From Methanolobus bombayensis (GTDB lineage: Archaea; Halobacteriota; Methanosarcinia; Methanosarcinales; Methanosarcinaceae): 64,000 bases of DNA. A model generated the notes under the pieces. That model made no database searches. It was given only the letters and a program-made list of their open reading frames with translations, and had not been told where the DNA came from. The DNA is taken from contig NZ_JAGGKD010000004.1 in assembly GCF_017873415.1 (NCBI RefSeq), forward strand, positions 62,001 to 126,000. The letters run 5' to 3'. Position 1 is the first letter of the stretch; every line of letters starts with the position of its first letter. Shown here in pieces: positions 14,397-53,463 of this stretch. A program made the translations under genes and the position numbers.

Positions 14397-14427
14397 GTTT
14401 CTCCCACGCTTTAAGTTGATTCCAATA

Positions 14428-14589: not shown

Positions 14590-14612
14590 ATTCTTCCTCC
14601 TTTTTTTCTTAA

Positions 14613-15979: not shown

Positions 15980-16070
15980 AAGGAATTTAATATTTTCATC
16001 TGCAGTATCAGAAATATACCTGCACAACAGAACAGAATTATATTTGAGGGAAAACAATATCTAAGTAACC

Positions 16071-33021: not shown

Positions 33022-34557
33022 ATGAGGAGTATCAATAATTATTTTAAGTATTCAGCTCTGGCGCTATTGGTTCTAGTGGCGGCTACAGTAAATGCATCGG
33101 CAGCAGCATCAGTGTTAATTTCTCCGGAATCAAGTACGGTTTCACCGGGTGAAACCTTTAACGTTGATGTTAATGTAAATTCAGGTATCGATGAGCTAAG
33201 GGCACTAAGTGTTATGATAGATTATAATCCTGCGGTACTGGAAGTACTGAGTATAACAGAGGAGGACCTTATTGTGGATGGTTCACTTATTGAACCGGAA
33301 AGTGGAGATAATGGGGATGGAACTATAATCTATGGATTTGCAACACTAACAGATGAAAATTCTTATGCTCCAGGGAGTGGAACATTTATATCTATCGAAT
33401 TTCAGGTGAAAAATACTATAGAGGATGATGTTTACCATCTCAATTTTGAGAATGTCAAGCTTAAGGATAGGAATAATGATGAAATTCAAGGAACTGCCAC
33501 AGGAAGTTCCGTAATTATCGGCGAGGTTGCAGATGGTGCAGTGTCCCCTCCGGAAGTCATAGATTTCGGAAGTCCTGTAGAAAGCAAATCAAGTGACAGT
33601 TCCTCGGTTTCTACAAGTACAATGGGAAGCGGTATTGAGACGGGACAGCAATTTTCGTACGAGTATATCTTCGGTTCCCATCCGGATGACTATCATAAGC
33701 TGGTATCAAGAGGAATTGTACCAAATGAAGAAGAGTGGGATAACAATCTTTTAATACTTGAGAACAACGTGAAAAATGAACTTGGCGATAAGGGATATTT
33801 ATTCTCAAAAGGAAAGATCATATCTGTAGGTGCTAATTCAGGCGGTTATCTTGTGATCGTATTTTATGAGCCATTGATGGTCGAAGGAGCAGAGTTCGAT
33901 GAGGTCTATGAAATAGTCCGTCAAAATGCAAGGGAAATGAATGTCAGCAATGTTCCGACAGAGTTCGGTCAAGGTACTGTTCCCGAAGTAAGCACAAGGT
34001 TGCAATACTTGCTTCAAGATGCTCAAACAATGAATGATATAAAACTTGAGAGTCTGATGGACAATGAAAGTTCTCTGTATGACCCGGAAATAATAGCTAT
34101 TGCCGGAGAGGTTCCTATAATCAATAATGAAAAAGAATGCTGGCAATGGTACTATCAGGATTCATATTCAATATCTCTCAATATGAGCGATTCTATAGAT
34201 GAATATTTGCAAAATGGCACCCTGTTGGGCACAGGTCTCTCAACTTACGGCTATTTCGAAGTTAAGATCAATGAGGAAGCAGATATAGATAGAAAGTCAT
34301 TGATAGCTGAAGTTTATGATATCGTAAATACGGAGGCTATTAAAGTAGGACTAAGTAATGTTCCTGTGGTCTTTAAGGTCGCCAGTCCGGATGTTGCGGA
34401 AGATGTGCTGGCCTCGACAGAGGATGAAATTATAGATTATGATCCTGTCAGCTCAGAAAGTGAATCGCAGCAGGCACCAGGTTTTGGCTTCCTTATAAGT
34501 ATTCTATCAATTTCTTTGGTATATTTTGCAGTCTTTTCCGGGAAACGCAAATATTGA
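33022..34557 (+). CDS. Secreted cohesin-domain protein with PGF-type C-terminal sorting signal
   Basis: About 511 residues. A signal peptide (YSALALLVLVAATVNASAA) is followed by one cohesin-like domain (residues ~28-165: ISPESSTVSPGETFNVDV, LRALSVMIDYNPAVLEV). A Ser-rich linker and two diverged copies of an unknown ~110-residue domain follow (each ending near SNVP). The tail APGF, a hydrophobic helix and GKRKY look like the PGF-CTERM archaeosortase signal. I start at ATG 33022 after GGGGG; the frame opens 36 bp earlier. Presumably an anchored receptor for a dockerin partner. Confidence 0.75.
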   Translation: MRSINNYFKYSALALLVLVAATVNASAAASVLISPESSTVSPGETFNVDVNVNSGIDELRALSVMIDYNPAVLEVLSITEEDLIVDGSLIEPESGDNGDGTIIYGFATLTDENSYAPGSGTFISIEFQVKNTIEDDVYHLNFENVKLKDRNNDEIQGTATGSSVIIGEVADGAVSPPEVIDFGSPVESKSSDSSSVSTSTMGSGIETGQQFSYEYIFGSHPDDYHKLVSRGIVPNEEEWDNNLLILENNVKNELGDKGYLFSKGKIISVGANSGGYLVIVFYEPLMVEGAEFDEVYEIVRQNAREMNVSNVPTEFGQGTVPEVSTRLQYLLQDAQTMNDIKLESLMDNESSLYDPEIIAIAGEVPIINNEKECWQWYYQDSYSISLNMSDSIDEYLQNGTLLGTGLSTYGYFEVKINEEADIDRKSLIAEVYDIVNTEAIKVGLSNVPVVFKVASPDVAEDVLASTEDEIIDYDPVSSESESQQAPGFGFLISILSISLVYFAVFSGKRKY

Positions 34558-34582
34558 ATTTTAACAAAAGAAGGAATAATTT

Positions 34583-34993
34583 ATGAACACGATAAGAATG
34601 ATACCTTTTCTGAAAAGGTTTTTTCTTTATCTTACTATTTTATTCCTTTTATGGGTGCCATTTGGTGGAAGGTATTTTGCCGCTTCAGTTGTTGTAGTGG
34701 ACTTTGAGAATTTCTTTTTGTTCTATCTGCCTTTGAACTTCATTCCTTTTGCAGCTCTTGTACTTGCTACAAAACTTGAAAAGGGGAAAACCGCAAAGAT
34801 TCTGTTGATAGGTCTTATATTGACAATTTTCTTTAATTTATTAATTGTCTTCTTGCAGATACTTTTCATATCTTACCAGGACCAATTACTCTATATGTAT
34901 GCTATTGGCAGAATAGCATTCCCATTCCTTTTATGGCTTATTTTTACCTATGATATTGTTCTTGCTCCCTTGCAGGAACCAACTGGAGAATAA
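34583..34993 (+). CDS. Unknown four-helix membrane protein
   Basis: A 136-residue protein with about four hydrophobic segments, short loops and few charges. It begins 25 bp after the cohesin gene, with AAGAAGGAATAAT upstream, so it is probably cotranscribed. No family recognised. Confidence 0.6.
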   Translation: MNTIRMIPFLKRFFLYLTILFLLWVPFGGRYFAASVVVVDFENFFLFYLPLNFIPFAALVLATKLEKGKTAKILLIGLILTIFFNLLIVFLQILFISYQDQLLYMYAIGRIAFPFLLWLIFTYDIVLAPLQEPTGE

Positions 34994-35322
34994 GCATTTT
35001 TGATTTTTGAACTGCAAGTTCATGCTTTGTTTTTACTGTAAGTATTAAATATTTAATACATTTTGAGACTAACCATAATGTGATAATATTATGAAACAAT
35101 ATTACGAAACAATATTACGAAACAATCTTTGTAAACAGTCTTCTGAATATCTATTTCTTATCGGTTTATAATATCTAACCTCATATCAACATTTGGGGTT
35201 GTCGGTGGGATTATCCAAGGCAACTTCACTTGGATATCATTGAACCATTGGAGACGGAGTCTTGTTCTCTGATATCGAAGATTCGAAGAGTCGGTACGGC
35301 TTAAGAAAGGAGGATATCAATA
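34994..35322 (+). promoter_or_regulatory. Promoter region and long structured leader of the dockerin surface-protein gene
   Basis: Contains three tandem 13-bp repeats (35085-35123), then a TATA box TTTATAATATC at about 35165-35174. Transcription start is expected near 35195, with a leader of about 125 nt. The leader has an 8-bp hairpin (TATCCAAG 35212-35219 with CTTGGATA 35229-35236) and further short inverted repeats. It ends with AAAGGAGG about 10 bp before the ATG. This arrangement is typical of very highly expressed surface-protein genes. Confidence 0.55.
35085..35123. repeat. Three tandem 13-bp repeats upstream of the dockerin gene
   Basis: AATATTATGAAAC, AATATTACGAAAC and AATATTACGAAAC follow one another without gaps, with a partial fourth copy (AATC). 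They sit about 70 bp before the predicted transcription start, where they could bind an activator in phase (13 bp is not a full helical repeat) or simply be slippage products. Confidence 0.75.
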
Positions 35323-38300
35323 ATGAAAGTGAAGTTCCAGCATAAGCTTTTAGTGATTGCTATTGCTATGATTGCAATTTTTTCAATAGCAACCACTGCA
35401 AGTGCTGAAGATAATGCAAGTACATTGCGGATGTACGGTGAAGCAAATCTTTCTGCAGCGTTCCCTTATGAGGATCCTGAAGCACCGTTCGATCCAATGA
35501 ATGTAGAAGCGCCAGAGAAAGATTTTGTAACATTTAACCCGGCCTTAATGGAAGAGGCTATTGTTGTGAACAATATCGATTCCAAGCAAAAGGTCTTTGC
35601 CAGACAGTGGTTTGTACCTGAGTACGTTGAACCAACTGGTATGGTATGGCTTGATGATTTCAACTGCATCATTAACGATTCTGTAGAAGTAGTTAGTGAG
35701 GAAAATGCTGAGATCTTCAGACATCCACCATCAAATTGGGAGTGCGAGTGGGTTCCAAACCATAACGAGTACGTCTGGGAAGATGTTGTTACAGATTATA
35801 CATACATGTTCGTTGACAAGCACTACCAGCCAAGAGCTGCAACTGCAAAGAGCCCAACAAGGTCCTACTGGACAACATTCTGGTTCCCTGTTGCAGACAA
35901 TGACGATGAACAGATCGGTCTTGACGGTTATGATATGAATTATGACGGTGAAGACGATATGGTCGTTCTTAAGCGGGTTGGGGACTTTAACCATGATGGT
36001 TACAAGGACATAAAGATCAGCTCTGAAATGATGGCAGTAAATGTCGGTGACAGTGTGCAGTTCCTTGACCACATCGTAGAAGTAGAAGGAGTCTATTTCG
36101 ATGGAAATGGTGAAGTTGACAGAGTTGCTGTAAAGATATACTACAACGGTAACAATGAACAGAACCCAACATACCCAGGTCCTGAACAGATTGGTGGCCT
36201 TCATTCAGTCAATGTTGAACAGGGTATACTAAGCGCCGGTCGTCACACAGTATCAATGAACAATCCACAGTTCTATGAACCATGGTATCTCGAGATCGAT
36301 GCTACCAGTGTTAGTTCCGACAAGGTTCTTCTTACCGTTGGACGTCAGCTCTACACCAGAGAGACTTTCTTCGTAGATGGTGCAGAATATGATGTTGCCA
36401 TGATCTACGGTCCAGAAGATGACAGTGTCAAGTACATTACCATCAGGAACCCAGTACCAGAACACCAGGATGTCAAGCTGAACGATCTGTCAGTAACCAA
36501 GGAAATGGTCGACAATGAAGAATATCTCCCATTGCTGCCACCATACAACAAGGTACACACAATGATAGATGACATCAACATTCCACACTCTGAAACCTGC
36601 TGTGAATACACAGGATATGTAGGTTCAAGCCTTAACATGGCTGCACCTGACGGAGAATGGTATGAGGATGATTGCATAGGTTCAGACTATGATACCATAG
36701 AAGAACGTAAGATATACAATGTTGATCCATTACTCATCTACTTCGTCGACAAGACAAATGAGCCAAGATTCCACACAGACCTTCTCGAGATACTCGATGA
36801 AGGTGCAGAGCTCAGTAACATAGAAGACGATGAAGGATGGAAGTGGCTCCACATAAGGACAATGCCTGAATTCTACAAAGACTTCGTCTATCCAGAACTT
36901 CCTGACGTAGATGATGGTACAGGTGACTTCCTGTTCACAAGCTCCTTTGTAGCAGAGAACTCCATGAAGTGTGCAGACTACATCTGTGATCCTAACAACT
37001 TCGAATGGCCACAGAGAATTATGTTCTCATATGACCAGGAGACAGGAGCAGAAGATATCTATGTTAACGAGATAGACGCTGAAACCAACGGACTCAGAGT
37101 CTATGGTGAAGGCAACATGGATGCTGCATTCCCATACACAGATCCTGAAGCACCATTTGATCCATTGAGCGCAGAAGCACCTCTCAAGGACTTTGTAACA
37201 CTCAATCCAGCTAAGATAAAGGCAGGAATAGTAGTGGACAACAAGGACTCACATGAGAAGGTATTCTTCAGACAGTGGTTCGTACCTGAATATGATGAAC
37301 CAACAGGTCGTGTATGGCTTGATGAGCCTAACAAGTACATCTGGGAAGATGTAGTGAACGAGTACACCTACATGTTCATTGACAAGCATTATCAGCCAAC
37401 ACACGGTATGGCAACACCAGCCGGTAACCCTGACAACCCATGGGATGTCACAAAGCAGGAAGAGTCATTCTGGACATACTTCTGGTTCCCTGTTGCAGAT
37501 AATGATGCTAACCAGGTCGGTCTTGACTGCTTCGACATGAACTATGATGGTGTTGACGACATGACCTACCTCATGGCAGTCTATGACTTCAACGATGACG
37601 ACAGAAAGGATGTAGCACTTGGTTCAGAGCTGTTCGCTCTTGGAGTAGGTGAGAGGATCCAGTTCCTTGACCACATTGTCGAGATCGAGGATATCTACTA
37701 CGATGGTGAGGGTCAGATCGACAGAGTTGCTGTAAAGGTATTCTACAACGGTAACAATGAACAGAACCCAACATACCCAGGTCCTGAACAGATCGGTGGA
37801 CTGCATTCAGTCAATGTCGAACAGGGTGTACTCAGCGCAGGACGCCACACTGTAAGCATGAACCTGCCAGACTTCTATGAGCCATGGGCAATGCAGATTC
37901 TTGGTACCAGTGTACAGAGTGACAAGGTACTGATCCGTGTAGGACGTCTGCTCCACACAGGAGAATCATTCTTCGTTGATGGTGCAGAATATGCTGTTCC
38001 AATGATATATGGTCCTGAAGAGAATAGTGTCAAGTACATTACCATCAGGAACCCAATACCAGAACACCAGGATGTCAAGCTGAACGACCTGTCTGTTACC
38101 AAGGAAATGGTAGACAACAATGAGATCATACCAGTGCTCCCACCATTCAACAGGGATCACATAATGATCGACGACATTGATGTGCCACACAGTGTACCGG
38201 ATGAGAGCACAACCTGCTACTACGGACAGTGGTGGGATTCCAGTGAAACCGATGACCTGCTCTGGTATCACGACATGTACATCAATGAGGCATATGACAC

Positions 38301-38847
38301 AATTGCAGAACGTATGTTCGATGTACCACCAACAGAGATCTACTTCACAGGTAAGGACTATGAGCCAAGGTTCCACACCAACCTGCTTGAACTCCTAAGA
38401 GAATGTGATACAACTGAGACCTGGAAGTGGCTGCACATCTACACCATGCCAGACTTCTACAAGGAGTTTGTCTATCCGGATGTACCAAATGCAGGCGGAA
38501 GCGGTGACTATCTCCTGACCAGTTCATTCACAGCACCTAACACAGTGCTTTGTGAGAACGTCGAGATCCCACCAGTCTATCCAAGGATGATGTTCACATA
38601 TGATCCAACGGATGGTACAGGCCTGTACATGAATGGCGGTGCACCTGTTGTTGAACCACCAGCAGATGAAATGAAGGGTGACTACGACGGTAATGAGATT
38701 GTCAACTTCGACGACTTCGTAGAATTCGCAGAAGCATATAATTCTGTAGAAGGTGATGCAAACTACGATGCAATCTTCGACTTCGATGACGACAACGACG
38801 TAGACTTCGATGACTTCGTAGAGTTCGCAGGAGTTTATCAGTCTTAA
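35323..38847 (+). CDS. Major secreted surface protein, tandem duplicated, with C-terminal dockerin
   Basis: 1174 residues. A signal peptide (residues 1-28, ending TASAE) is followed by two copies of a ~550-residue unit (about 33-590 and 591-1105). These are marked by LR.YGE.N..AAFPY, PTYPGPEQIGGLHSVN and PVLPP/PLLPP segments. The end is a dockerin-type pair of calcium-binding loops (DYDGNEIVNFDDF and DFDDDNDVDFDDF, residues ~1117-1174). No membrane anchor is present, so retention probably depends on the dockerin binding a cohesin, as in the next gene. C-ending codons dominate as in cdh genes, suggesting high expression. The big unit is not one I recognise. Confidence 0.8.
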   Translation: MKVKFQHKLLVIAIAMIAIFSIATTASAEDNASTLRMYGEANLSAAFPYEDPEAPFDPMNVEAPEKDFVTFNPALMEEAIVVNNIDSKQKVFARQWFVPEYVEPTGMVWLDDFNCIINDSVEVVSEENAEIFRHPPSNWECEWVPNHNEYVWEDVVTDYTYMFVDKHYQPRAATAKSPTRSYWTTFWFPVADNDDEQIGLDGYDMNYDGEDDMVVLKRVGDFNHDGYKDIKISSEMMAVNVGDSVQFLDHIVEVEGVYFDGNGEVDRVAVKIYYNGNNEQNPTYPGPEQIGGLHSVNVEQGILSAGRHTVSMNNPQFYEPWYLEIDATSVSSDKVLLTVGRQLYTRETFFVDGAEYDVAMIYGPEDDSVKYITIRNPVPEHQDVKLNDLSVTKEMVDNEEYLPLLPPYNKVHTMIDDINIPHSETCCEYTGYVGSSLNMAAPDGEWYEDDCIGSDYDTIEERKIYNVDPLLIYFVDKTNEPRFHTDLLEILDEGAELSNIEDDEGWKWLHIRTMPEFYKDFVYPELPDVDDGTGDFLFTSSFVAENSMKCADYICDPNNFEWPQRIMFSYDQETGAEDIYVNEIDAETNGLRVYGEGNMDAAFPYTDPEAPFDPLSAEAPLKDFVTLNPAKIKAGIVVDNKDSHEKVFFRQWFVPEYDEPTGRVWLDEPNKYIWEDVVNEYTYMFIDKHYQPTHGMATPAGNPDNPWDVTKQEESFWTYFWFPVADNDANQVGLDCFDMNYDGVDDMTYLMAVYDFNDDDRKDVALGSELFALGVGERIQFLDHIVEIEDIYYDGEGQIDRVAVKVFYNGNNEQNPTYPGPEQIGGLHSVNVEQGVLSAGRHTVSMNLPDFYEPWAMQILGTSVQSDKVLIRVGRLLHTGESFFVDGAEYAVPMIYGPEENSVKYITIRNPIPEHQDVKLNDLSVTKEMVDNNEIIPVLPPFNRDHIMIDDIDVPHSVPDESTTCYYGQWWDSSETDDLLWYHDMYINEAYDTIAERMFDVPPTEIYFTGKDYEPRFHTNLLELLRECDTTETWKWLHIYTMPDFYKEFVYPDVPNAGGSGDYLLTSSFTAPNTVLCENVEIPPVYPRMMFTYDPTDGTGLYMNGGAPVVEPPADEMKGDYDGNEIVNFDDFVEFAEAYNSVEGDANYDAIFDFDDDNDVDFDDFVEFAGVYQS

Positions 38848-38870
38848 GCCTGAATGAGTGAGGTGAAATC

Positions 38871-41111
38871 ATGACAAAAATAACATGGAAGGGAATGGCA
38901 GGATCTGCTGCCATCCTTTTAATATTTTGTGCATGTTTCATGGTAGGCGTAGGACTTGCAGCGGCTGCACCTTCGGTGTCAGTAGATCCGCAAATGAACG
39001 AGTACGATGCAGGTGATACGTTCCAGGTTACTGTAGATGTTAATTCAGATGCAGAGAACCTGCGTGCTGTGAACTTGCAGCTGGGCTATGACCCCGCAGT
39101 GCTTGTGGTTAATGGAGTAACCAATGAAGCACTGTTTGGAACCGACACGCTCACCATATCTTGTGGTGACGACGGAGCAGGCACTATAGAATGTGGTATT
39201 GCATCCACTGCTGGTAATGGTAACTATACACCAGTAGCCGGAACAATGTTGACCATTGATTTCGAAGTTAAGGCCGGTGCTGCCAACGGCACCTATGACC
39301 TTGACCTGGATTCAGTGGTTCTCAAGGACGAGACCAATACGGCTATTGCCGGAGTTGCGATCACAGATGGGGAATTGAAGGTTGGTGATGATATTGCACC
39401 GCCAGTAGTTGATGACCCTGAAGTGATGATCTCTCCAGCAGCAAGTGGCCCGGTAGGTCCTGGTGACACATTCCTGATAGAGGTAGAGGTTGATTCCGCT
39501 GATGAAGACCTGCGTGCTGTGAACTTGCAGCTGGATTATGACCCTGCAGTGCTCATGGTGAATAGCATAGCCAATGAAAACCTCATTCCAGGAGCACTTG
39601 AGGCCCCTGGAAGTGGTGACGACGGAGCAGGCACCATTACTTATGGTGTTGCCTCAACCACTGGAACCTACGCACCAGCTGATGGCACAATGTTAAGCAT
39701 TGTGTTTGAAGTGAAGGCAGGGGCAGCAGATGGAACCTACGATCTTGACCTGAACACTGTAGTTCTCAAGGACGAAACCAATGCAGCTATTGCCGGAGTC
39801 GTGGTAACTGATGGTACTGTCCAGGTAGCTAACGGTCCGGTCGCAATGCCAGAGGTAATGATCTCTCCGGCAGCAACTGGCCCCGTAGATATTGGTGACA
39901 CATTCCAGGTAGAGGTGGATGTTGATTCCGCTGCTGAGGATCTGCGTGCTGTGAACATTCAGCTTGACTATGATCCAACGATGTTTATGGTCAACAGCAT
40001 AACCAATGAGAACCTCCTTGGAGCAGGGGCTCTTGTAGCACCTGGCAGCGGTGACGACGGAGCAGGCACTATCACATATGGTGTTGCTGCAACGGGCGGA
40101 ACCTATGCACCAATCGCTGGCACAATGTTAACCATTGAGTTCGAAGTGAAGGCCGGTGCAACCGGAGGAATCTACGACCTTGACCTGAACAATGTAGTTC
40201 TCAAGGATGGGACCAATGCAGCTATTGCCGGAGTCGTGGTTACAGATGGTACAGTTGAAATACTGCCAAATGTAGTCCCGGTACCAGAGATAATTTCCCA
40301 TTCAGATGGTGATGTTGTTTCAAAGACACAAATAGTTGAAGTTATAGACAACTCCAGCCAGGATGATATCATGTCCGCAACATTTGAAGTATTCGCAGAT
40401 ATCAACGGTAACTGTGATGACGATGATGTTGGAGAAACCTGGGCCGTATTCGGCACAGACAATGATGGATCAGACGGATGGACAGCTGCTCTTGACACAA
40501 CTACTGTGCCTGACGGACAGTATCTGATAAAGGCAATACTTGACGATGGTAGGGACACTGCGTTCTATATCGTATGTGTAGAGGTTTACAACCCTGAAGG
40601 AATCATTCTGATGCCAGGTTGGAACCTGATCTCGTTCCCTGAGACCCTTGAGAATTCAAGCATCGACTATGTGCTGCAGGAATTCAGCGACACACAGGTA
40701 GACAGCGTATTCTATGACGACAACGGATCCATGGTAGTACCAACAGACTTCGAACCTTTGAAGGCATACTGGGTACACAACAACATGAGTGAAGAACTTG
40801 TCATAGTAGAGGAATATCTGACACCAATGGTACCATCAACGCCACCATCTCTGGTTCTTCATCCAGGATGGAACGCTATAGGTCACACATCCAATGTTGA
40901 CCTCCCTGCTGAGATTGCCCTCTCAACCATTGACGATTCCTATGTCAAGGTGAAAGGACCATGGGTAAGTTCTGCAGAGGAGTATGCCTTTGTAGGCTTC
41001 AATGGATTTGAAGGTGTGATCAATGGTAACCAGGTAGGTACAGATGTCTTCATGATGGACGTGTACGAAGGATACTTCGTGTTCGTAACCGAGGAGTGTG
41101 TATTGGCCTAA
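38871..41111 (+). CDS. Scaffoldin-like protein with three cohesin domains
   Basis: 746 residues. A signal peptide ending near AAAA (residue ~32) is followed by three closely similar cohesin-like domains (about 35-165, 182-320, 326-462). Each has GDTF.V.VDVDS, LRAVN.QLDYDP and YDLDL..VVLKD.TN. Then come an Ig-like domain (~465-575) and two copies of a GWN-containing domain (~576-746: LMPGWNLISFP, LHPGWNAIGHT). No C-terminal anchor is visible. It begins 24 bp after the dockerin gene with GAGGTGA, so the two are cotranscribed, as expected for binding partners. Confidence 0.8.
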   Translation: MTKITWKGMAGSAAILLIFCACFMVGVGLAAAAPSVSVDPQMNEYDAGDTFQVTVDVNSDAENLRAVNLQLGYDPAVLVVNGVTNEALFGTDTLTISCGDDGAGTIECGIASTAGNGNYTPVAGTMLTIDFEVKAGAANGTYDLDLDSVVLKDETNTAIAGVAITDGELKVGDDIAPPVVDDPEVMISPAASGPVGPGDTFLIEVEVDSADEDLRAVNLQLDYDPAVLMVNSIANENLIPGALEAPGSGDDGAGTITYGVASTTGTYAPADGTMLSIVFEVKAGAADGTYDLDLNTVVLKDETNAAIAGVVVTDGTVQVANGPVAMPEVMISPAATGPVDIGDTFQVEVDVDSAAEDLRAVNIQLDYDPTMFMVNSITNENLLGAGALVAPGSGDDGAGTITYGVAATGGTYAPIAGTMLTIEFEVKAGATGGIYDLDLNNVVLKDGTNAAIAGVVVTDGTVEILPNVVPVPEIISHSDGDVVSKTQIVEVIDNSSQDDIMSATFEVFADINGNCDDDDVGETWAVFGTDNDGSDGWTAALDTTTVPDGQYLIKAILDDGRDTAFYIVCVEVYNPEGIILMPGWNLISFPETLENSSIDYVLQEFSDTQVDSVFYDDNGSMVVPTDFEPLKAYWVHNNMSEELVIVEEYLTPMVPSTPPSLVLHPGWNAIGHTSNVDLPAEIALSTIDDSYVKVKGPWVSSAEEYAFVGFNGFEGVINGNQVGTDVFMMDVYEGYFVFVTEECVLA

Positions 41112-41133: not shown

Positions 41134-41167
41134 TGCAGTGAGAATCTACTCACTGCATTTTGATTTA
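41134..41167 (+). terminator. Terminator after the scaffoldin gene
   Basis: A perfect 9-bp stem, TGCAGTGAG (41134-41142) and CTCACTGCA (41149-41157), with a 6-nt loop followed by TTTTGATTTATT. It closes the dockerin-scaffoldin unit, 23 bp after the stop codon. Confidence 0.7.
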
Positions 41168-41182
41168 TTGAAGGTGGGACGT

Positions 41183-41863
41183 ATGATAAGTGGTAAAAAA
41201 TATAGTGCATTATTCTTACAGATTATGATAATAACATTGGCATTCTTAGTAGTTCCTGCTGCAGCTAATGCACCACCTACGGTTCTGGAAGGTACCCTTA
41301 TGATAGATGGGGAACCAGCTCCTGTAGGTACAGAGGTTGCATTAGTTGTTGATGGCAATGTTGTGGGACAGACAACTGTTACTAATGAAGGTCTTATTGG
41401 TGATGAACGTGCCAACAGACTGGGAGTATCTTCAGATTATGATGTGGTAACAGTCTATGTTAACGGGGTGGAAACCAAAACATTGGATTTTAACAGTTAT
41501 GACGATAGCGAAGTAGTATCCCTGGATATAAGTGCAACAAGCTCTGTACAGGAAACGCCTGTTGAAACGCCTGTAGAAGAAGATGAAGAAAAAGTAACTT
41601 CTGGTGGCGGAGGAGGCTTTAGTACTTCTACTGAGACAACTGAAACTACTGAAGTGGAAACCAGTGGTGTATCGGAATCTGTGTCAGCCGAAACAGAGGA
41701 AACAATACTTGAGAGCACAACAGAAGAAAATGCTGCTGAAGTAGAAGAGGAAAAGATTCCAGAATCAGAAACTGCTTCCAGTACTAGTGGTATTATTGCA
41801 ATAGTTGGCTTTGCTCTTATAGGAATTGCTGCTGTTTCTTATGGATACAGGTCCAGGAAGTAA
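41183..41863 (+). CDS. Cell-surface protein with Thr/Glu-rich stalk and membrane anchor
   Basis: About 226 residues. A signal peptide (residues ~1-29) is followed by a compact beta domain (~30-120: GTLMIDGEPAPVGTEVALVV) typical of small archaeal surface modules. A long stalk of Thr, Ser and Glu (~130-195), probably glycosylated, ends in a membrane span and basic tail (GFALIGIAAVSYGYRSRK). AAGGTGGG supports the ATG 41183; the frame opens 57 bp upstream inside the terminator. No PGF or VPxxxP motif, so it is a plain membrane anchor. Confidence 0.65.
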   Translation: MISGKKYSALFLQIMIITLAFLVVPAAANAPPTVLEGTLMIDGEPAPVGTEVALVVDGNVVGQTTVTNEGLIGDERANRLGVSSDYDVVTVYVNGVETKTLDFNSYDDSEVVSLDISATSSVQETPVETPVEEDEEKVTSGGGGGFSTSTETTETTEVETSGVSESVSAETEETILESTTEENAAEVEEEKIPESETASSTSGIIAIVGFALIGIAAVSYGYRSRK

Positions 41864-42495: not shown

Positions 42496-43239
42496 ATGTT
42501 GACCCGTGAACTAATATATGGATTGTTGCCTTACTCAATTCATCAAAAAATTGTGCGCTGGAAATGCAAATTTAAAAGTCAGGATGAGTTTTTAACAGAT
42601 AATCATCTGGCACTTTATCCTCCTTCTTTTGATCTAAATAAAGTTGTGAAAGAAGAGGTGGATAAATGTGTAGCCTTTTTACCTTATTGTGCAAAGCCTA
42701 TGGGCGAACACGAGTGTCCGGTATCTGATAAGACTGATAAGAGAAAGAATCAGAAATGTATCAAGGTGTCTGGTGGAAGATGTGATGTACCATGTTCCCT
42801 TGGTGAAATGGTTGATGTTCTCATTAAACATGGTTTTACAAAGAATCAGATATTCATAATTGATCGAGATTCAAATCTATTCCCATGGTTAAAACAAAAA
42901 AGAGAGGAAGGATATGAGTATTTTATGCCGGGAACAGGCTGCAAATATGGTGTATCCTATGCAATAGACTATGTCGGGAAAAAACTTGGCTATAAAGGTT
43001 GTATCGCTTTTGTAGATGATTTCTGTTCTGAAGACAAAGAGAATGGTGTCTGCAAATGCATGAATGATTACATTGGAATGGAAGGTATTGATAAAGGTAA
43101 AAGGACAAAAATTCATCAAGAAACCATCGTTCTTATGGATCAGATCCTTTCAGGAAAATATCAAAAAGGAAAATATCAAAACATGGATGATTTGGCTCAT
43201 AAGTCCCAAAGTCTGACAGAAATTCCATCCAGTCCGTGA
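42496..43239 (+). CDS. DUF116-family protein, copy 1
   Basis: A 247-residue cysteine-rich protein. Conserved segments include CVAFLPYCAKPMGEHECPVSD, CDVPCSLGEM, IFIIDRDSNLFPWL, GTGCKYGVSYAI and GMEGIDKGKRTKI. Archaeal and clostridial DUF116 proteins may bind iron-sulfur clusters; their function is unknown. AATGGAGGAAAA is an excellent Shine-Dalgarno. The C-terminus (KYQKGKYQNMDDL) is longer than in copy 2. Its neighbours are surface-protein genes. Confidence 0.8.
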   Translation: MLTRELIYGLLPYSIHQKIVRWKCKFKSQDEFLTDNHLALYPPSFDLNKVVKEEVDKCVAFLPYCAKPMGEHECPVSDKTDKRKNQKCIKVSGGRCDVPCSLGEMVDVLIKHGFTKNQIFIIDRDSNLFPWLKQKREEGYEYFMPGTGCKYGVSYAIDYVGKKLGYKGCIAFVDDFCSEDKENGVCKCMNDYIGMEGIDKGKRTKIHQETIVLMDQILSGKYQKGKYQNMDDLAHKSQSLTEIPSSP

Positions 43240-43471: not shown

Positions 43472-44146
43472 GTGTTATACTCATTTATTCCATACTCTGT
43501 TAACAAAATATTGATAGAGAGAAGATTGAGCTCTGAAAGGTTTAACAGAAGCTTGTTAACTTCTCATGTAGCTATTTCCTCTTCTTCAGTAGATTTGGAG
43601 AAGATAGTTAATGATGAACTTGATAGTTGTGTTTCATTTATTCCTTATTGTGCCAAACCATATGGTGATTACATTTGTCCTGTTTCTGACAAAGAGAAAC
43701 TGAGAAAGAACAGAAATTGCCTGAAACTGGATGATAAAACATGCAATGTCCCATGTTCTCTGGGGGATATCGTAACGATTCTGAAAAATCGAGGTTTTAC
43801 AAAGGACAGAATCTTCATAATAGACAGTGATTCCAACCTCTTTACATGGCTGGAGAAGAAAAAAAGTGAAGGTTACAAATATTTTCTCCCGGGCATAGGT
43901 TGCCATTATGGTGTAGGATATGCACTGAGGTATGTTCAGAAAGATATTGGTATGGAAGGTTGTATAGTTTTTCTTCAGGACTATGATCCATTGGATGAAA
44001 AACACGGTGTATGCAAAAGTATTTTTGACTACAATAATATGGAGAGGGTTGACAAAGGTAAAAGAACAAAGATAGGTCAGGAATCGATTAGTATAATCGA
44101 AAAGATATTGTCCGGAGAATTCGACCCGGAAAAAGAACAAAGCTGA
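43472..44146 (+). CDS. DUF116-family protein, copy 2
   Basis: A 224-residue paralogue of the preceding gene, with the same motifs (CVSFIPYCAKPYGDYICPVSD, CNVPCSLGDI, GIGCHYGVGYAL, MERVDKGKRTKI) and most cysteines in the same places. The GTG 43472 is the first standard start in the frame, but it lacks a close Shine-Dalgarno. Similarity to copy 1 extends about seven residues further upstream (KIAVLEV). There GGGGGG (ending near 43444) would fit a start at a non-standard ACG or ATA codon. The start is unresolved. Confidence 0.75.
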   Translation: MLYSFIPYSVNKILIERRLSSERFNRSLLTSHVAISSSSVDLEKIVNDELDSCVSFIPYCAKPYGDYICPVSDKEKLRKNRNCLKLDDKTCNVPCSLGDIVTILKNRGFTKDRIFIIDSDSNLFTWLEKKKSEGYKYFLPGIGCHYGVGYALRYVQKDIGMEGCIVFLQDYDPLDEKHGVCKSIFDYNNMERVDKGKRTKIGQESISIIEKILSGEFDPEKEQS

Positions 44147-44345
44147 AATTGCTTTTTTTATTAAGAATAGTGGTTCTTATCATAATTATCGTAAAATGTT
44201 CCTGATAAATACTACTTAATTTTCATACTATTCTTTGTTACATAACATTCCTACTGATTTATGTTTGCTGTTATAATAAATATCTATGAATCTAAATAAT
44301 TCATGATTGGAAATACCTCTTTTATATGTAATGGGTGGGGCAAAC

Positions 44346-47300
44346 ATGACAAAATACAATATACTTTTTGTAATAGCACTGATTATAATTTCGCTATCAG
44401 GAACAGTAGCGGCCATTGAAGTCGATGGAGTAAGAAGTACTGGAGAATGGGATGAGAACTGGAATTTCGGTCAGGTTAACGCCAGTGATTATGATTCGTC
44501 TGGCCCGTTCGGGAACAAAATGGTAGTATTCCAGAATGGAAGCTGGTATGATGAGGACCTTCCGGCAGATGCAGGTAGTAATTTCAATGAGAACTTGAGT
44601 ACAGAAGGACCTTATCCAAGTGGTTATGATATAAAGGGCATATATGCCGATTATGACATACTCAATGATACTCTGTATGGTATGTCAACAGTATATGGTC
44701 TGCCCGGAGATCTTGACGGCGATGGAAACATCGTGGGACTTACGGCAAATGGTGATGTGCTTGGAAATGTAAGTGGTAGACCAATAACCGGAATCGGTCC
44801 TGGAGAACAATGGAGTATCATTTTGATCCAGGAAGAAAGAATGATAATGGTCGTAATTACCGATAATGACTTTGAAATAAGCACTTCAGGTATCACGGGA
44901 TTCAATGAGGACGATATCTTTGCAGCTAATAGCAATGCCGGAGGGCCTGAAAACTGCAGTGATTGTGTTTACGAGATATCAATAAATAATCTTTCCAGTT
45001 ATTTTGACATGACACCAGGTAAGAATTTCAGTGTTGCTGCAAGTGCAGGTGGAAATCTTGACATTGTAGGAGAGGACATTGCAGCTGTATTCTTTGAGAT
45101 TCCGGAGCCTTCAATAGATATTGAGAAATCAACCAATGGAGAAGATGCTGACACGGCTCCCGGCCCCGGTATACCAGAGAACAACAGTCTGATATGGACC
45201 TATGTTGTAACAAACAATGGTAATGTGCCACTACAGGACATAAGTGTCACTGATGACAAACTTGGTGCCGTTACCAATCTGATCAGTAATGGAGATGGGG
45301 ATGATATACTTGCTGTTGAAGAGACATGGATCTATGCAGTAGAAGGAATCGCAGAATGCGGTCAATATGAGAACAATGCAACAGTAGTAGGTTTCTTTGA
45401 TATCATTCCGGTATTTGATACAGACCCAAGTCACTACTTCGGTGAGTGTCCTGACATTGATATTGAGAAGGCGACCAATGGAGAAGATGCTGATACAGCA
45501 CCAGGACCCGGAGTTGCTGAAGGGGATCTTGTTACGTGGACCTATGTTGTCACTAACACAGGTAATGTCAATCTCACTAACATCCAGGTAACCGACGATA
45601 TGCTTGGATCTATCAGCAATATTGTTGATCAGGGTGATGGTGACGCTGTCCTTTCAATTGGTGAGATCTGGACCTATGAAGCTACAGGAGATGCTGAATG
45701 TGGTCAGTACGAGAATGAAGGTAATGTTACCGGAGATTACAATGAAGTCACTGTAAGTGACATTGATCCAAGTCACTACTTCGGTGAATGTCCTGATATT
45801 GATATTGAGAAGGCAACCAATGGTGAAGATGCCGATACTGCACCTGGACCCGGAGTTGCTGAAGGGGATACTGTAACCTGGACTTATGTTGTCACCAACA
45901 CAGGTAATGTCAATCTCACTAACATCCAGGTAACCGACGATATGCTAGGATCCATCAGCAATATTGTTGATCAGGGTGATGGTGACGCTGTCCTTTCAAT
46001 TGGTGAGATCTGGACCTATGAAGCAACAGGCGAAGCTGAATGTGGTCAGTACGAGAATGAAGGTAATGTTACCGGTGACTATGATGATGTTACCGTAACT
46101 GATGAAGACCCAAGTCACTACTTCGGTGAGTGTCCTGACATCGACATAGAGAAAGCAACCAATGGAGAAGATGCTGATACTGCACCTGGACCCGGAGTTG
46201 CTGAAGGAGATACTGTAACCTGGACCTATGTTGTCACCAATACAGGTAATGTCCCACTTAGCAATGTTGTTGTCAGTGATGACCAGGGTGTAGTTCCTGT
46301 CTATCAGAACGGTGATACCAATGTTGATGGTATCCTTGACCTTACCGAGATCTGGACCTATGAAGTTGAAGGTACAGCTTCATGTGGCCAGTATGCTAAC
46401 ATTGGTAATGTTACCGGTGACTATGATGATGTTACCGTAACTGATGAGGACCCAAGTCACTACTTCGGTGAGTGTCCTGACATCGACATAGAGAAAGCAA
46501 CCAATGGAGAAGATGCTGATACTGCACCTGGACCCGGAGTTGCTGAAGGAGATACTGTAACCTGGACTTATGTTGTCACCAATACAGGTAATGTCAATCT
46601 CACTAACATCCAGGTTAGCGATGATATGCTTGGATCCATCAGCAATATTGTTGATCAGGGTGATGGTGACGATACTCTTGCTGTCGGAGAAGTATGGACC
46701 TATGAGGCTACAGGAGATGCTGAATGTGGTCAGTACGCAAATGAAGGTAATGTTACCGGTGATTACAATGAAGTCACTGTAACTGATGAGGACCCAAGTC
46801 ACTACTTCGGTGAATGTCCTGATATTGATATTGAGAAGGCAACCAATGGTGAAGATGCTGATACTGCACCTGGACCCGGAGTTGCTGAAGGAGATACTGT
46901 AACCTGGACTTATGTTGTCACCAATACAGGTAATGTCAATCTCACTAACATCCAGGTAAGCGACGATATGCTTGGATCCATCAGCAATATTGTTGATCAG
47001 GGTGATGGTGACGCTGTCCTTTCAATTGGTGAGATCTGGACCTATGAGGCTACAGGAGATGCTGAATGTGGTCAGTACGAGAATGAAGGTAATGTTACCG
47101 GAGATTACAATGAAGTCACTGTAAGTGACATTGATCCAAGTCACTACTTCGGTGAATGTCCTGATATTGATATTGAGAAGGCAACCAATGGTGAAGATGC
47201 TGATACAGCACCCGGACCTGGAGTTGCTGAAGGAGATACTGTAACCTGGACTTATGTTGTCACTAACACAGGTAATGTCAATCTCACTAACATCCAGGTA

Positions 47301-50300
47301 ACCGACGATATGCTTGGATCCATCAGCAATATCGTTGATCAGGGTGATGGTGACGCTGTCCTTTCAATTGGTGAGATCTGGACCTATGAGGCTACAGGAG
47401 ATGCAGAATGTGGCCAGTATGCTAACATTGGTAATGTTACCGGTGACTATGATGATGTTACCGTAACTGATGAGGACCCAAGTCACTACTTCGGTGAATG
47501 TGCTGATATTGACATTGAAAAAGCAACCAATGGTGAGGATGCTGATACTGCACCTGGACCCGGAGTTGCTGAAGGAGATACTGTAACCTGGACCTATGTT
47601 GTCACCAATACAGGTAATGTCCCACTTAGCAATGTTGTTGTCACTGATGACCAGGATGCAGTTCCTGTCTATCAGAGCGGTGATACCAATGTTGATGGTA
47701 TCCTTGACCTTACCGAGACCTGGACCTATGAAGCTACAGGAGACGCAGAATGTGGCCAGTATGCTAACATTGGTAATGTTACCGGTGACTATGATGATGT
47801 TACCGTAACTGATGAGGACCCAAGTCACTACTTCGGTGAATGTCCTGACATTGACATAGAGAAGGCAACCAATGGTGAGGATGCTGATACTGCACCTGGA
47901 CCAGGGGTTGCTGAAGGCGATCTTGTTACGTGGACCTATGTTGTCACTAACACAGGTAATGTCCCACTTAGCAATGTTGTTGTCACTGATGATCAGGATG
48001 CAGTTCCTGTCTATCAGAGCGGTGATACCAATGTTGATGGTATCCTTGACCTTACCGAGACCTGGACCTATGAAGCTACAGGAGACGCAGAATGTGGCCA
48101 GTATGCTAACATTGGTAATGTTACCGGTGACTATGATGATGTTACCGTAACTGATGAGGACCCAAGTCACTACTTCGGTGAGTGTCCTGACATCGACATA
48201 GAGAAAGCAACCAATGGCGAGGATGCTGATACTGCACCTGGACCAGGGGTTGCTGAAGGCGATCTTGTTACGTGGACCTATGTTGTCACCAACACAGGTA
48301 ATGTCCCACTTAGCAATGTTGTTGTCAGTGATGACCAGGGTGTAGTTCCTGTCTATCAGAGCGGTGATACCAATGTTGATGGTATCCTTGACCTTACCGA
48401 GATCTGGACCTATGAAGCTACAGGAGATGCTGAATGTGGTCAGTACGAGAATGAAGGTAATGTTACCGGTGACTATGATGATGTTACCGTAACTGATGAG
48501 GACCCAAGTCACTACTTCGGTGAATGTCCTGATATTGATATTGAGAAGGCAACCAATGGTGAAGATGCTGATACTGCACCTGGACCCGGAGTTGCTGAAG
48601 GAGATACTGTAACCTGGACTTATGTTGTCACCAATACAGGTAATGTCAATCTCACTAACATCCAGGTAACCGACGATATGCTTGGATCCATCAGCAATAT
48701 CGTTGATCAGGGTGATGGTGACGCTGTCCTTTCAATTGGTGAGATCTGGACCTATGAAGCTACAGGAGATGCTGAATGTGGTCAGTACGAGAATGAAGGT
48801 AATGTTACCGGAGATTACAATGAAGTCACTGTAAGTGACATTGATCCAAGTCACTACTTCGGTGAGTGTCCTGACATTGATATTGAGAAGGCGACCAATG
48901 GAGAAGATGCTGATACTGCACCCGGACCTGGAGTTGCTGAAGGGGATCTTGTTACGTGGACCTATGTTGTCACTAACACAGGTAATGTCAATCTCACTAA
49001 CATCCAGGTAACCGACGATATGCTTGGATCCATCAGCAATATTGTTGATCAGGGTGATGGTGACGCTGTCCTTTCAATTGGTGAGATCTGGACCTATGAG
49101 GCTACAGGAGATGCTGAATGTGGTCAGTACACAAATGAAGGTAATGTTACCGGTGATTACAATGAAGTCACTGTAACTGATGAGGACCCAAGTCACTACT
49201 TCGGTGAATGTCCTGATATTGATATTGAGAAGGCAACCAATGGTGAAGATGCTGATACAGCACCAGGACCCGGAGTTGCTGAAGGGGATCTTGTTACGTG
49301 GACCTATGTTGTCACTAACACAGGTAATGTCCCACTTAGCAATGTTGTTGTCACTGATGACCAGGATGCAGTTCCTGTCTATCAGAGCGGTGATACCAAT
49401 GTTGATGGTATCCTTGACCTTACCGAGACCTGGACCTATGAAGCTACAGGAGACGCAGAATGTGGCCAGTATGCTAACATTGGTAATGTTACCGGTGACT
49501 ATGATGATGTTACCGTAACTGATGAGGACCCAAGTCACTACTTCGGTGAATGTCCTGATATTGATATTGAGAAGGCAACCAATGGAGAAGATGCTGATAC
49601 TGCACCTGGACCCGGAGTTGCTGAAGGGGATCTTGTTACGTGGACCTATGTTGTCACCAATACAGGTAATGTCAATCTCACTAACATCCAGGTGAGTGAT
49701 GATATGCTTGGATCTATCAGCAATATTGTTGATCAGGGTGATGGTGACGATACTCTTGCTATCGGAGAAGTATGGACCTATGAGGCTACAGGAGATGCTG
49801 AATGTGGTCAGTACGCAAACGAGGGTAATGTTACCGGAGATTACGATGGTGGAACTGTCAATGATAGTGACCTGAGTCACTACTTCGGTGAATGTCCTGA
49901 CATTGACATTGAGAAGGCGACCAATGGTGAGGATGCTGATACAGCACCCGGACCTGAACTGGATGCTGGTGATGTTGTTACGTGGACCTATGTTGTCGCC
50001 AATACAGGTAACGTGAATCTTACCAATGTCAGTGTAACAGATAACCAGCTTGGTGTGATCACTAACATTGTCGATCAGGGTGATGGTGATAATATACTTG
50101 CCGTTGGAGAGATATGGACCTATGAGGCGACTGGCAGTGCTTCATGTGGTGATTATGGAAACATTGGTACAGTGACCGGTGATTATAATGACGTCACTGT
50201 AAGCGATGAGGATCCAAGTCACTATAATGTTGTCTGCATACCACGCATTGACATTGAGAAGTCGACAAATGGTGTTGATGCTGATGTAGCTCCAGGACCA

Positions 50301-51032
50301 ACACTGGGCTTTGAAGATAATGTCACCTGGGTGTATGTTGTCCGCAACACAGGAAATGTGCAGCTGACAAACGTTACAGTTAACGATGACCAGCTTGGTG
50401 CGATCACTAACATTGTTGATAAAGGAAATGGTGATGACATGTTGCTGCCTGGTGAAGAATGGACCTATGATGCAACAGGAACGGCAGAATGTGGTCAGTA
50501 TGCGAATATTGGTGATGTCGTTGGCTACTATGGAGCGATACCTGTAACTGACAGTGATCCAAGCCACTACAATGTTGACTGCGGACCCGACATAGATATT
50601 GAGAAATATATCAATGGAAACGATGCTGACCAGGCACCAGGAGTTCTTCTGGCAGTAGGTGACGGTATCACCTGGACCTTTGTAGTTGAGAATACAGGTA
50701 ATGTCCCATTGGAGAATATTGTTGTTGATGATGACAAGCTTGGCGTTATTCCGGCATCGAGCATCATCTCAAAGAGCATCAACAATGATGATATACTTGA
50801 TCCCGGAGAGGTCTGGACATATGAACTTGAGAACACTGTGACAGAATGTCTGCCACAGCACAAGAACACAGCAATTGTCACTGGAGAATTTGAGGGTAGT
50901 GAGGTTACAGATGAGGATGTAGCCCATTATTACTGCCAGCCTGTGGTTCCATTGCTGAGTCCTGTAGGCATGATAATATTCGTTGCAGCTCTGGGACTGA
51001 TAGGAACAATTTATCTTAGAAGGAGGGAGTAA
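44346..51032 (+). CDS. Giant cell-surface protein with 17 DUF11-type repeats and VPxxxP sorting tail
   Basis: 2228 residues. A signal peptide (1-23) and an N-terminal domain (~24-255, VDGVR..GEWDENW, possibly CBM9-like) are shared with the protein at 51294. Then 17 repeats of ~114 residues follow, each starting IDIEK.TNG.DAD, with NTGNV in the middle and AECGQY ... HYFGEC at the end. Two cysteines per repeat suggest internal disulfides, and NLT/NVT sequons suggest N-glycosylation. The tail VPLLSP, a membrane span and RRRE form the VPxxxP-CTERM signal. GGGTGGGG supports the ATG 44346. Likely a long surface fibre or adhesin. Confidence 0.88.
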   Translation: MTKYNILFVIALIIISLSGTVAAIEVDGVRSTGEWDENWNFGQVNASDYDSSGPFGNKMVVFQNGSWYDEDLPADAGSNFNENLSTEGPYPSGYDIKGIYADYDILNDTLYGMSTVYGLPGDLDGDGNIVGLTANGDVLGNVSGRPITGIGPGEQWSIILIQEERMIMVVITDNDFEISTSGITGFNEDDIFAANSNAGGPENCSDCVYEISINNLSSYFDMTPGKNFSVAASAGGNLDIVGEDIAAVFFEIPEPSIDIEKSTNGEDADTAPGPGIPENNSLIWTYVVTNNGNVPLQDISVTDDKLGAVTNLISNGDGDDILAVEETWIYAVEGIAECGQYENNATVVGFFDIIPVFDTDPSHYFGECPDIDIEKATNGEDADTAPGPGVAEGDLVTWTYVVTNTGNVNLTNIQVTDDMLGSISNIVDQGDGDAVLSIGEIWTYEATGDAECGQYENEGNVTGDYNEVTVSDIDPSHYFGECPDIDIEKATNGEDADTAPGPGVAEGDTVTWTYVVTNTGNVNLTNIQVTDDMLGSISNIVDQGDGDAVLSIGEIWTYEATGEAECGQYENEGNVTGDYDDVTVTDEDPSHYFGECPDIDIEKATNGEDADTAPGPGVAEGDTVTWTYVVTNTGNVPLSNVVVSDDQGVVPVYQNGDTNVDGILDLTEIWTYEVEGTASCGQYANIGNVTGDYDDVTVTDEDPSHYFGECPDIDIEKATNGEDADTAPGPGVAEGDTVTWTYVVTNTGNVNLTNIQVSDDMLGSISNIVDQGDGDDTLAVGEVWTYEATGDAECGQYANEGNVTGDYNEVTVTDEDPSHYFGECPDIDIEKATNGEDADTAPGPGVAEGDTVTWTYVVTNTGNVNLTNIQVSDDMLGSISNIVDQGDGDAVLSIGEIWTYEATGDAECGQYENEGNVTGDYNEVTVSDIDPSHYFGECPDIDIEKATNGEDADTAPGPGVAEGDTVTWTYVVTNTGNVNLTNIQVTDDMLGSISNIVDQGDGDAVLSIGEIWTYEATGDAECGQYANIGNVTGDYDDVTVTDEDPSHYFGECADIDIEKATNGEDADTAPGPGVAEGDTVTWTYVVTNTGNVPLSNVVVTDDQDAVPVYQSGDTNVDGILDLTETWTYEATGDAECGQYANIGNVTGDYDDVTVTDEDPSHYFGECPDIDIEKATNGEDADTAPGPGVAEGDLVTWTYVVTNTGNVPLSNVVVTDDQDAVPVYQSGDTNVDGILDLTETWTYEATGDAECGQYANIGNVTGDYDDVTVTDEDPSHYFGECPDIDIEKATNGEDADTAPGPGVAEGDLVTWTYVVTNTGNVPLSNVVVSDDQGVVPVYQSGDTNVDGILDLTEIWTYEATGDAECGQYENEGNVTGDYDDVTVTDEDPSHYFGECPDIDIEKATNGEDADTAPGPGVAEGDTVTWTYVVTNTGNVNLTNIQVTDDMLGSISNIVDQGDGDAVLSIGEIWTYEATGDAECGQYENEGNVTGDYNEVTVSDIDPSHYFGECPDIDIEKATNGEDADTAPGPGVAEGDLVTWTYVVTNTGNVNLTNIQVTDDMLGSISNIVDQGDGDAVLSIGEIWTYEATGDAECGQYTNEGNVTGDYNEVTVTDEDPSHYFGECPDIDIEKATNGEDADTAPGPGVAEGDLVTWTYVVTNTGNVPLSNVVVTDDQDAVPVYQSGDTNVDGILDLTETWTYEATGDAECGQYANIGNVTGDYDDVTVTDEDPSHYFGECPDIDIEKATNGEDADTAPGPGVAEGDLVTWTYVVTNTGNVNLTNIQVSDDMLGSISNIVDQGDGDDTLAIGEVWTYEATGDAECGQYANEGNVTGDYDGGTVNDSDLSHYFGECPDIDIEKATNGEDADTAPGPELDAGDVVTWTYVVANTGNVNLTNVSVTDNQLGVITNIVDQGDGDNILAVGEIWTYEATGSASCGDYGNIGTVTGDYNDVTVSDEDPSHYNVVCIPRIDIEKSTNGVDADVAPGPTLGFEDNVTWVYVVRNTGNVQLTNVTVNDDQLGAITNIVDKGNGDDMLLPGEEWTYDATGTAECGQYANIGDVVGYYGAIPVTDSDPSHYNVDCGPDIDIEKYINGNDADQAPGVLLAVGDGITWTFVVENTGNVPLENIVVDDDKLGVIPASSIISKSINNDDILDPGEVWTYELENTVTECLPQHKNTAIVTGEFEGSEVTDEDVAHYYCQPVVPLLSPVGMIIFVAALGLIGTIYLRRRE
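45111..50940 (+). repeat. Tandem array of 17 ~342-bp DUF11 repeats
   Basis: By the start signature, copy 1 is divergent. Copies 2-14 are close to identical in DNA, and copies 15-17 drift away toward the C-terminus. Two variants alternate: A (NVNLTNIQV..MLGSISNIVDQ) and B (NVPLSNVVV..PVYQ.GDTNVDGILDL). The order is A A B A A A B B B A A B A for copies 2-14. The uniform centre with diverged ends is what unequal crossing-over and gene conversion leave. Confidence 0.85.
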
Positions 51033-51229: not shown

Positions 51230-51290
51230 TATATATAGTGTTGACTAACTCTTAAATTGAAATATATTCTTTATAACAATGGGAGCGGAA
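51230..51290 (+). promoter_or_regulatory. Promoter of the DUF11/archaeosortase unit
   Basis: A TATA box CTATATATAG (about 51229-51238) predicts transcription start near 51262. GGGAGCGG at 51280-51287 is the Shine-Dalgarno for the ATG at 51294. Because a separate terminator precedes it, this gene and the archaeosortase form a unit apart from the giant gene. Confidence 0.5.
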
Positions 51291-51293
51291 AAT

Positions 51294-52832: not shown

Positions 52833-52869
52833 TTCCAATTTCTTTTCTTTTTTATTGCTGGGAGAGGTT

Positions 52870-53463
52870 ATGGTAAAAAAGAACAGAAAACCAAAAGGTA
52901 CCAGAAAATCCAGGTCTATTGAAAGGGAAACAGCTGCTACTGTTGGTAATAAGAGTCAGTTTAAGGACTTTCTTAAAAAGAACAAAAATGTTCTCAGGTT
53001 TATAGGACCTTATTTGTTCTATATAGCGCTTTTCACTTTGGTATACATAACCTTACAGGAAAAATTTGCTTTTCTGAACTTACTGACTGCTGATGCTCTT
53101 TCATCCCTAATGTCGCTTTTAGGCGTTGAAAGTTCTTCTTATGGTCAGTCTGTTTACATGGAAGGATTTTCTGTGATGATAATAGATGAATGCACAGGAA
53201 TGTATGAACTTCTGGTTTATGCAGGCTGCATACTTGCCTATCCCACAACGCTGAATAAGAAAGTACTGGGCTTGGTGCTGGGAATACCTGCAATGTTTGG
53301 TGTGAACATGATGAGATTGATATTCCTGTCTTTTGTTGGAATTCTCTATCCTTCAATGTTCAGTTACTTTCACTACTACCTCTGGCAGATAACATTTATC
53401 TTTCTCATAGTGATGTTCATGCTGCTATGGATAGAAAAAATAGTCAAGAACCAAAATGTTTGA
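52870..53463 (+). CDS. artB: Archaeosortase (exosortase family), probably the VPxxxP-specific type
   Basis: About 197 residues. A basic cytoplasmic N-terminus (~45 residues) is followed by about five membrane helices. The proposed catalytic residues of the exosortase/archaeosortase family are all present: C108 in DECTGMYE, R149 in NMMRLIFL and H168 in FHYYLW. These enzymes cleave C-terminal sorting signals and attach the protein to a lipid-linked anchor. Archaeosortase B is the type reported to pair with VPxxxP signals, and two such proteins lie directly upstream. GGAGAGG supports ATG 52870; the frame opens 45 bp earlier. Confidence 0.85.
   Translation: MVKKNRKPKGTRKSRSIERETAATVGNKSQFKDFLKKNKNVLRFIGPYLFYIALFTLVYITLQEKFAFLNLLTADALSSLMSLLGVESSSYGQSVYMEGFSVMIIDECTGMYELLVYAGCILAYPTTLNKKVLGLVLGIPAMFGVNMMRLIFLSFVGILYPSMFSYFHYYLWQITFIFLIVMFMLLWIEKIVKNQNV

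Follow-up and report, generated by a model that had tools for sequence, protein, structure and literature searches.

We analysed a 64,000-nucleotide stretch of the Methanolobus bombayensis genome (contig NZ_JAGGKD010000004.1, positions 62,001 to 126,000; hereafter the window, in whose own numbering all coordinates without a locus handle are given), in which a set of adjacent genes probably encodes a non-cellulosomal cohesin-dockerin surface-assembly cassette that would build a modular, non-enzymatic coat or matrix. Its core comprises a giant secreted protein ending in a dockerin (gene at 35323) and a scaffoldin with three cohesins (38871), accompanied upstream by a cohesin protein with a PGF-type tail (33022) and downstream by a putative membrane stalk (41183). 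The role of archaeal cohesins and dockerins has been in question since they were first seen in Archaeoglobus, and this locus allows a predicted cognate pair to be named together with its clients and recognition code. A preliminary description of the three cohesin and dockerin genes placed such domains in a few archaea, which is an understatement: anaerobic methanotrophic (ANME) archaea hold dozens of them, including scaffoldin-like proteins with up to five cohesins (PMC9012536, PMC5244752), and a large survey of these organisms left which domains bind each other as a matter for experiment (PMC9012536). In the literature searched, which did not extend to subscription papers, we found no paper on the cassette, its code or its exchange; a paper on transcription starts in M. 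psychrophilus does not mention cohesins.

Profile searches with PF00963 recovered three cohesins in the 38871 product (E 2.6e-43) and one in the 33022 product (2.8e-13), with scores at the locus of 148 bits and 50.7 bits against a curated cut-off of 24.1. An AlphaFold model of the scaffoldin shows the beta-sandwich (jelly-roll) fold of cohesins, superposing on solved ones with a Z of 18.4 (1.9 Å over 138 residues; TM score 0.80) and on the archaeal cohesin 2xdh with a Z of 16.7, and cohesins are present in 12/12 scaffoldin homologs; by profile and fold the 38871 product carries true cohesins. The C-terminal 57 residues of the 35323 product contain two DxDxN/D loops, whose sequence displays two loop-helix units with acidic or amide residues at the calcium-site positions 1, 3, 5, 9 and 12. 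PF00404 alone did not match this region, although it was matched directly by 6 of 28 giant repeat sequences (best 5.4e-10), and a dockerin profile built from 16 relatives was used in its place. Against the PDB this profile retrieved dockerins first (4wi0, 9.9e-11; 2y3n, 2.8e-10), with scaffoldin dockerins at 1e-10 to 7e-7, the first EF-hand protein at 4e-4 and calmodulin-type proteins near 1e-3; the giant's model superposes on the dockerin 2y3n_B with a Z of 8.4 (1.7 Å, 56 residues). This domain is, by profile and fold, a dockerin and not a general EF hand. Thus, the cohesin-like domains and the dockerin-like calcium loop pair of the preliminary description are both borne out, even if only the first of the two Pfam models it had named detects its domain in the window.

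We then compared, across 16 loci, the distances among giant bodies, dockerins, scaffoldin cohesins and scaffoldin C-termini. Dockerin distances follow those of the scaffoldin cohesins (r 0.91) and continue to do so once the giant body is accounted for (partial Mantel r 0.87, p 1e-4). The scaffoldin C-terminus shows no significant relation to the dockerin given the body (-0.13), and is related to the giant body given the dockerin (partial r 0.70). Type B dockerins are accompanied by type B cohesins on both backbone clades (L032, L039). Compared with its own clade, L039 is mostly 65-97% identical up to the dockerin; identity falls to 25-57% over dockerin and cohesins and returns to mostly 75-97% behind them. 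This profile indicates that dockerin and cohesins were swapped there as one block. L039, together with L032 and L035, can be regarded as a natural swap experiment. The giant's dockerin and the scaffoldin cohesins are accordingly best described as a predicted cognate pair, whose presumed binding is strongly supported by coevolution.

Since contiguity alone could yield such a correlation, repeat symmetry and unlinked clients were also tested. When dockerin positions in the 16 loci are numbered from the first Asp of each calcium loop, positions 10, 11, 13, 14 and 15 are the same in both repeats of a dockerin in 88-100% of loci, whereas their agreement between species is just 26-60% of pairs; at positions 4, 7, 18, 19 and 21 repeat-to-repeat agreement is 6-31%. 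Internal symmetry of the dockerin sequence has been linked to dual binding in bacterial cellulosomes (PMC8063739), and the symmetry seen here would be compatible with the same behavior. A profile search, which is not an exhaustive count, found at least four dockerin proteins in the genome: the giant, a CAP protein, a NosD/beta-helix protein and a cohesin+dockerin protein, the first three of which share the core FDDFVEFA. Across 10 genomes, 18 unlinked dockerin proteins have a similarity of 0.854 to their own giant versus 0.723 to others (permutation p 1.5e-4), the own giant being the best or tied match for 15 of them. The informative genomes are G003 (FIDFV in all three proteins), G022 (DFRAF) and G024 (DL[AG]AF), whose four clients have divergent codes and find their best match in their own giant only. 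This offers good but not conclusive support for unlinked clients sharing the dockerin code of their own species, and the scaffoldin probably has several clients. Other dockerins are also present: a large protein (L050, G000:C14) combines a cohesin with a different, RWDVN dockerin, and dockerins similar to this type are found in most congeners, including those lacking the giant. Small proteins with one cohesin and one dockerin (L131:1606-2301, L136:1173-1871, L140:1734-2489) resemble adaptor scaffoldins and possibly extend chains.

The genes for the giant and the scaffoldin lie side by side in 12 congeners, at the same chromosomal site downstream of antiporter subunit genes, and the arrangement recurs in 15 Methanolobus-type loci as well as in distant lineages; the cultured species M. 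vulcani, M. psychrotolerans and M. profundi are among the carriers. On average, congeners that possess the giant encode 10.0 cohesin domains and those without it 2.0. Diverged relatives were collected through a scan of named genomes and a search covering 238 genomes of the class, where relatives of the giant occur in 24 of the genomes and 7 of 39 genera. They come from Methanosarcinaceae, Methanoperedens, METP1 and other metagenome-assembled genomes, extending the range to ANME-like archaea. The giants of these lineages are 23-58% identical, and in every diverged locus with sufficient contig a giant with C-terminal dockerin-like loops has a cohesin gene directly downstream. Where the contig reaches far enough, a stalk gene nearly always comes after the scaffoldin, as in L041, L120, L121 and L122, while neither the four loci of a second Methanolobus clade (L037-L040) nor any of the distant loci has the 33022 gene. 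Giant, scaffoldin and stalk therefore form the minimal unit.

Several of these loci have peculiarities of their own. One contig labelled as a candidate division CSSED10-310 bacterium (L115) bears a Methanolobus-type cassette and is probably a misbinned archaeal contig. In L120, on a contig labelled Thermoplasmata, a von Willebrand A domain interrupts repeat 1 of the giant (3875-7687); this locus pairs an FDDFVEFA-type dockerin with a cohesin of the corresponding LRAV type. A fasciclin domain sits between scaffoldin cohesins 1 and 2 in L031 (6384-8735). The same cassette is found in methane-oxidising relatives, with one version including redox domains: the METP1 giant (L123, 8912-13957) contains a cytochrome c domain of the cbb3 type (PF13442), and at the start of the scaffoldin of this locus (14073-16013) there is a CxxCH motif together with a cupredoxin-like stretch.

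These features suggest the following scheme. Giant and scaffoldin, to judge from their sequences, would be exported; the giant's dockerin, able to bind in two alternative orientations, would then enter any of the one to three cohesins that the cotranscribed scaffoldin offers, allowing several giants per scaffoldin. The scaffoldin would be held at the cell via its conserved C-terminal domain and the neighboring membrane stalk, and membrane-anchored cohesin proteins (the 33022 product and a 951-residue protein described below) could hold giants directly, such that two modes of attachment may coexist, one straight to an anchored cohesin and one to a scaffoldin that gathers several giants. The CAP-domain and NosD-type beta-helix proteins, encoded elsewhere with the same code, would be displayed on the same sockets, the outcome being a modular coat or matrix without enzymatic function, located either in the S-layer or outside it. 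The back-to-back dockerin and cohesins could be exchanged as one specificity cassette, with unlinked clients adapting to the local code. A bolder version, which we put forward only tentatively, is that the dockerin-cohesin block is an exchangeable lock-and-key cassette on a conserved coat backbone, that unlinked clients converge on each new code, giving every species a private surface-assembly code, and that in METP1-like methanotrophs, where it bears c-type cytochrome and cupredoxin-like domains, the chassis can take part in extracellular electron transfer as well. If so, the private code would keep out foreign dockerin proteins of relatives or of a shared matrix.

The body of the giant consists of two tandem repeats that are 58% identical in self-comparison. 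A Pfam scan taking in 28 repeats and NCBIfam assigned them to no family, and neither Pfam, Foldseek nor fold comparison revealed any enzyme similarity; the giant most likely serves as a coat or matrix protein. It is also conceivable, if somewhat doubtful, that the giant is itself a lattice protein of the S-layer or a sheath, with a dockerin in place of the membrane anchor. Its best PDB match by Foldseek is 3u2g, the S-layer DUF1608 domain of M. acetivorans (E 0.011, prob 0.66; Z 8.0 on superposition), and its tandem duplication resembles that of Methanosarcina MA0829 (PF07752/DUF1608; PMC3361143), which is likewise a secreted surface protein from the same order. However, the superposition has a root-mean-square deviation of 10.6 Å, hhalign of the giant profile against 15 DUF1608 domains found nothing (prob 0.5) and PF07752 is unmatched in the 28 repeats, such that any resemblance to MA0829 would be one of partial fold with no detectable sequence homology. 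Moreover, the genome encodes several PF07752 S-layer proteins of its own, and the giant family occurs in only about half of the congeners. A likeness of residues 154-326 to class II viral envelope proteins (Z 5-6.5) was set aside as a common beta-sandwich arrangement within the unspecific range of the tool.

With regard to attachment, the 33022 product ends in APGFGFLIS, a transmembrane segment and GKRKY, with PGF kept in 10/10 orthologs, and the genome encodes archaeosortase A (TIGR04125, 2.2e-80). The PGF-type sorting tail noted earlier thus agrees in layout with the archaeosortase A/PGF-CTERM system, but the curated model TIGR04126 gave no match to this product at E<=1, as against 33.3 bits for a control S-layer protein of the same genome, and neither scaffoldin nor giant has such a tail. 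In the preliminary description this anchored cohesin was the base of the assembly; the giant would then be held one-to-one by the 33022 cohesin, leaving the three-cohesin protein for other dockerins. The shared neighborhood and the conserved PGF speak for this arrangement, as does the moderate tendency of the 33022 cohesin to follow the dockerin type (partial r 0.57, p 0.018), with a joint switch in L035. We nevertheless consider it unlikely: the gene is missing where giant and scaffoldin persist, its cohesin did not switch with the dockerin in L032, and over the same loci the agreement of the scaffoldin cohesins with the dockerin is far closer (0.92). Of the assembly originally envisaged, the docking of the giant to cohesins is supported by co-variation, whereas the PGF-tailed protein is a lineage-specific component and not a universal base. 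The scaffoldin, for its part, has neither anchor nor dockerin in its sequence; lacking a dockerin it cannot be held by cohesins and needs another anchor, for which the co-conserved stalk is a candidate. The stalk has no family match above cut-off, and its homologs in L041 end in PGF tails. The 951-residue protein (L044:6165-9020, G000:C2), unlinked to the cassette, combines a cohesin 49-59% identical to those of the scaffoldin with a PGF-pre-PGF domain and, at its C-terminus, a membrane segment.

Certain observations weigh against a surface assembly of this kind. About a dozen congeners live without the giant, and the anchoring of the scaffoldin is a guess from gene neighborhood. The client evidence comes from few independent genomes, a small sample of related species, and 3 of the 18 clients (in G002, G004 and G009) are not best matched to their own giant; the codes of those in G002 and G004 are clearly distinct, and these clients may bind to other cohesins, while that of G009 differs at one position. 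Further, the linked switch of dockerin and cohesins could be explained by one recombination tract without selection for pairing. Extended to the whole system, this would make cohesin and dockerin linked relics that no longer pair and owe their shared history to recombination of adjacent DNA only, as their contiguity and exchange in a single tract in L039 would allow; this is very unlikely, as neither the mirrored recognition positions of the dockerin repeats nor the matching codes in unlinked genes would be expected without selection for binding.

The beta-helix fold of NosD-type proteins is common to polysaccharide lyases. An archaeal cellulosome for extracellular polysaccharide breakdown, to which this kinship and a multi-cohesin scaffoldin with several dockerin clients might point, is hardly credible given a core client without enzyme similarity, the lack of any glycosidase among the dockerin proteins found in the genome and of any carbohydrate-binding module above cut-off in clients or scaffoldins, and second-clade genomes that have the giant but in which no other client of its dockerin type was found. 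The earlier judgement that the system is not cellulolytic therefore holds: cohesins, dockerins and a several-cohesin scaffoldin are present, whereas the hydrolases and carbohydrate-binding modules of a cellulosome were not found among the dockerin proteins detected or in the scaffoldin. The likeness to bacterial cellulosomes lies in a multi-cohesin scaffoldin without a catalytic domain, anchored cohesin proteins, symmetric dockerins and, in some congeners, adaptor-like proteins. Unlike them, the Methanolobus system has a giant non-enzymatic repeat protein as its core client, dockerin and cohesin sequences that adjoin in the DNA and are swapped as a block, and archaeal surface anchoring; here the partner that a multi-cohesin scaffoldin seems to serve is a surface protein without enzymatic function. 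The non-cellulosomal cohesins and dockerins of Archaeoglobus fulgidus (2xdh) and ANME archaea belong to the same domain families and to the same or related lineages; whereas those reports list domains and leave pairing open, Methanolobus adds a conserved cassette, a predicted cognate pair, a per-species code and clients.

The layout of the cassette is given in Table 1. All three open reading frames of the preliminary description are real and have the positions given there, and the 35323 product has the signal-peptide-like start expected of the secreted protein it was taken to be. The reading frame of the 33022 gene opens at 32986, its 511 residues being counted from the second ATG. There is no sign of a mobile element at the locus. 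The gap between the 35323 and 38871 genes is 23 nucleotides, with a ribosome-binding-like GAGGTGA before the ATG of the latter; hence the two are likely on one transcript, as had been proposed. The hairpin downstream of the scaffoldin gene is weak as a terminator, the region having 9 such sites against a shuffled mean of 6.9.

Table 1. Features of the cassette in the window (aa, amino acids)
Feature	Position	Strand	Details
Membrane-anchored cohesin protein, 511 aa	33022..34557	+	Signal peptide; one cohesin 33127-33513; PGF-transmembrane-basic tail 34474-34554
Small protein with multiple transmembrane segments, 136 aa	34583..34993	+	Adjoins the cassette in Methanolobus clade I (synteny)
Giant dockerin protein, 1174 aa, secreted	35323..38847	+	Tandem repeats of ~540 aa, 35425-37092 and 37093-38643, unnamed family
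C-terminal dockerin of the giant, 57 aa	38674..38844	+	Two calcium loops; core FDDFVEFA in both repeats
Scaffoldin, 746 aa	38871..41111	+	Signal peptide; cohesins 38970-39377, 39417-39821, 39849-40256
Scaffoldin, distal part	from 40266; 40596-41108	+	Ig-like linker; conserved WN-motif C-terminal domain
Terminator-like hairpin	41134..41157	+	9-bp stem then TTTT, between scaffoldin and stalk genes
Membrane stalk, 226 aa from the better start	41183..41863	+	Signal peptide; 'IDGEPAPVGTEV' domain; low-complexity spacer; C-terminal transmembrane segment

No Pfam family was found for the small 34583 product, a homolog of which is located after archaeosortase B in G027. Two paralogous Cys-rich proteins (42496-43239 and 43472-44146), which match no Pfam or NCBIfam family, are conserved downstream of the cassette. 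Further along the window, an archaeosortase B (52825-53463; TIGR04144, 1.8e-55) adjoins DUF7507/DUF11 repeat proteins (44307-51032 and 51279-52832), one of them with 17 repeats; orthologs of the shorter have C-terminal tails of a VPxxTP motif, a transmembrane segment and basic residues, making it a likely target of archaeosortase B.

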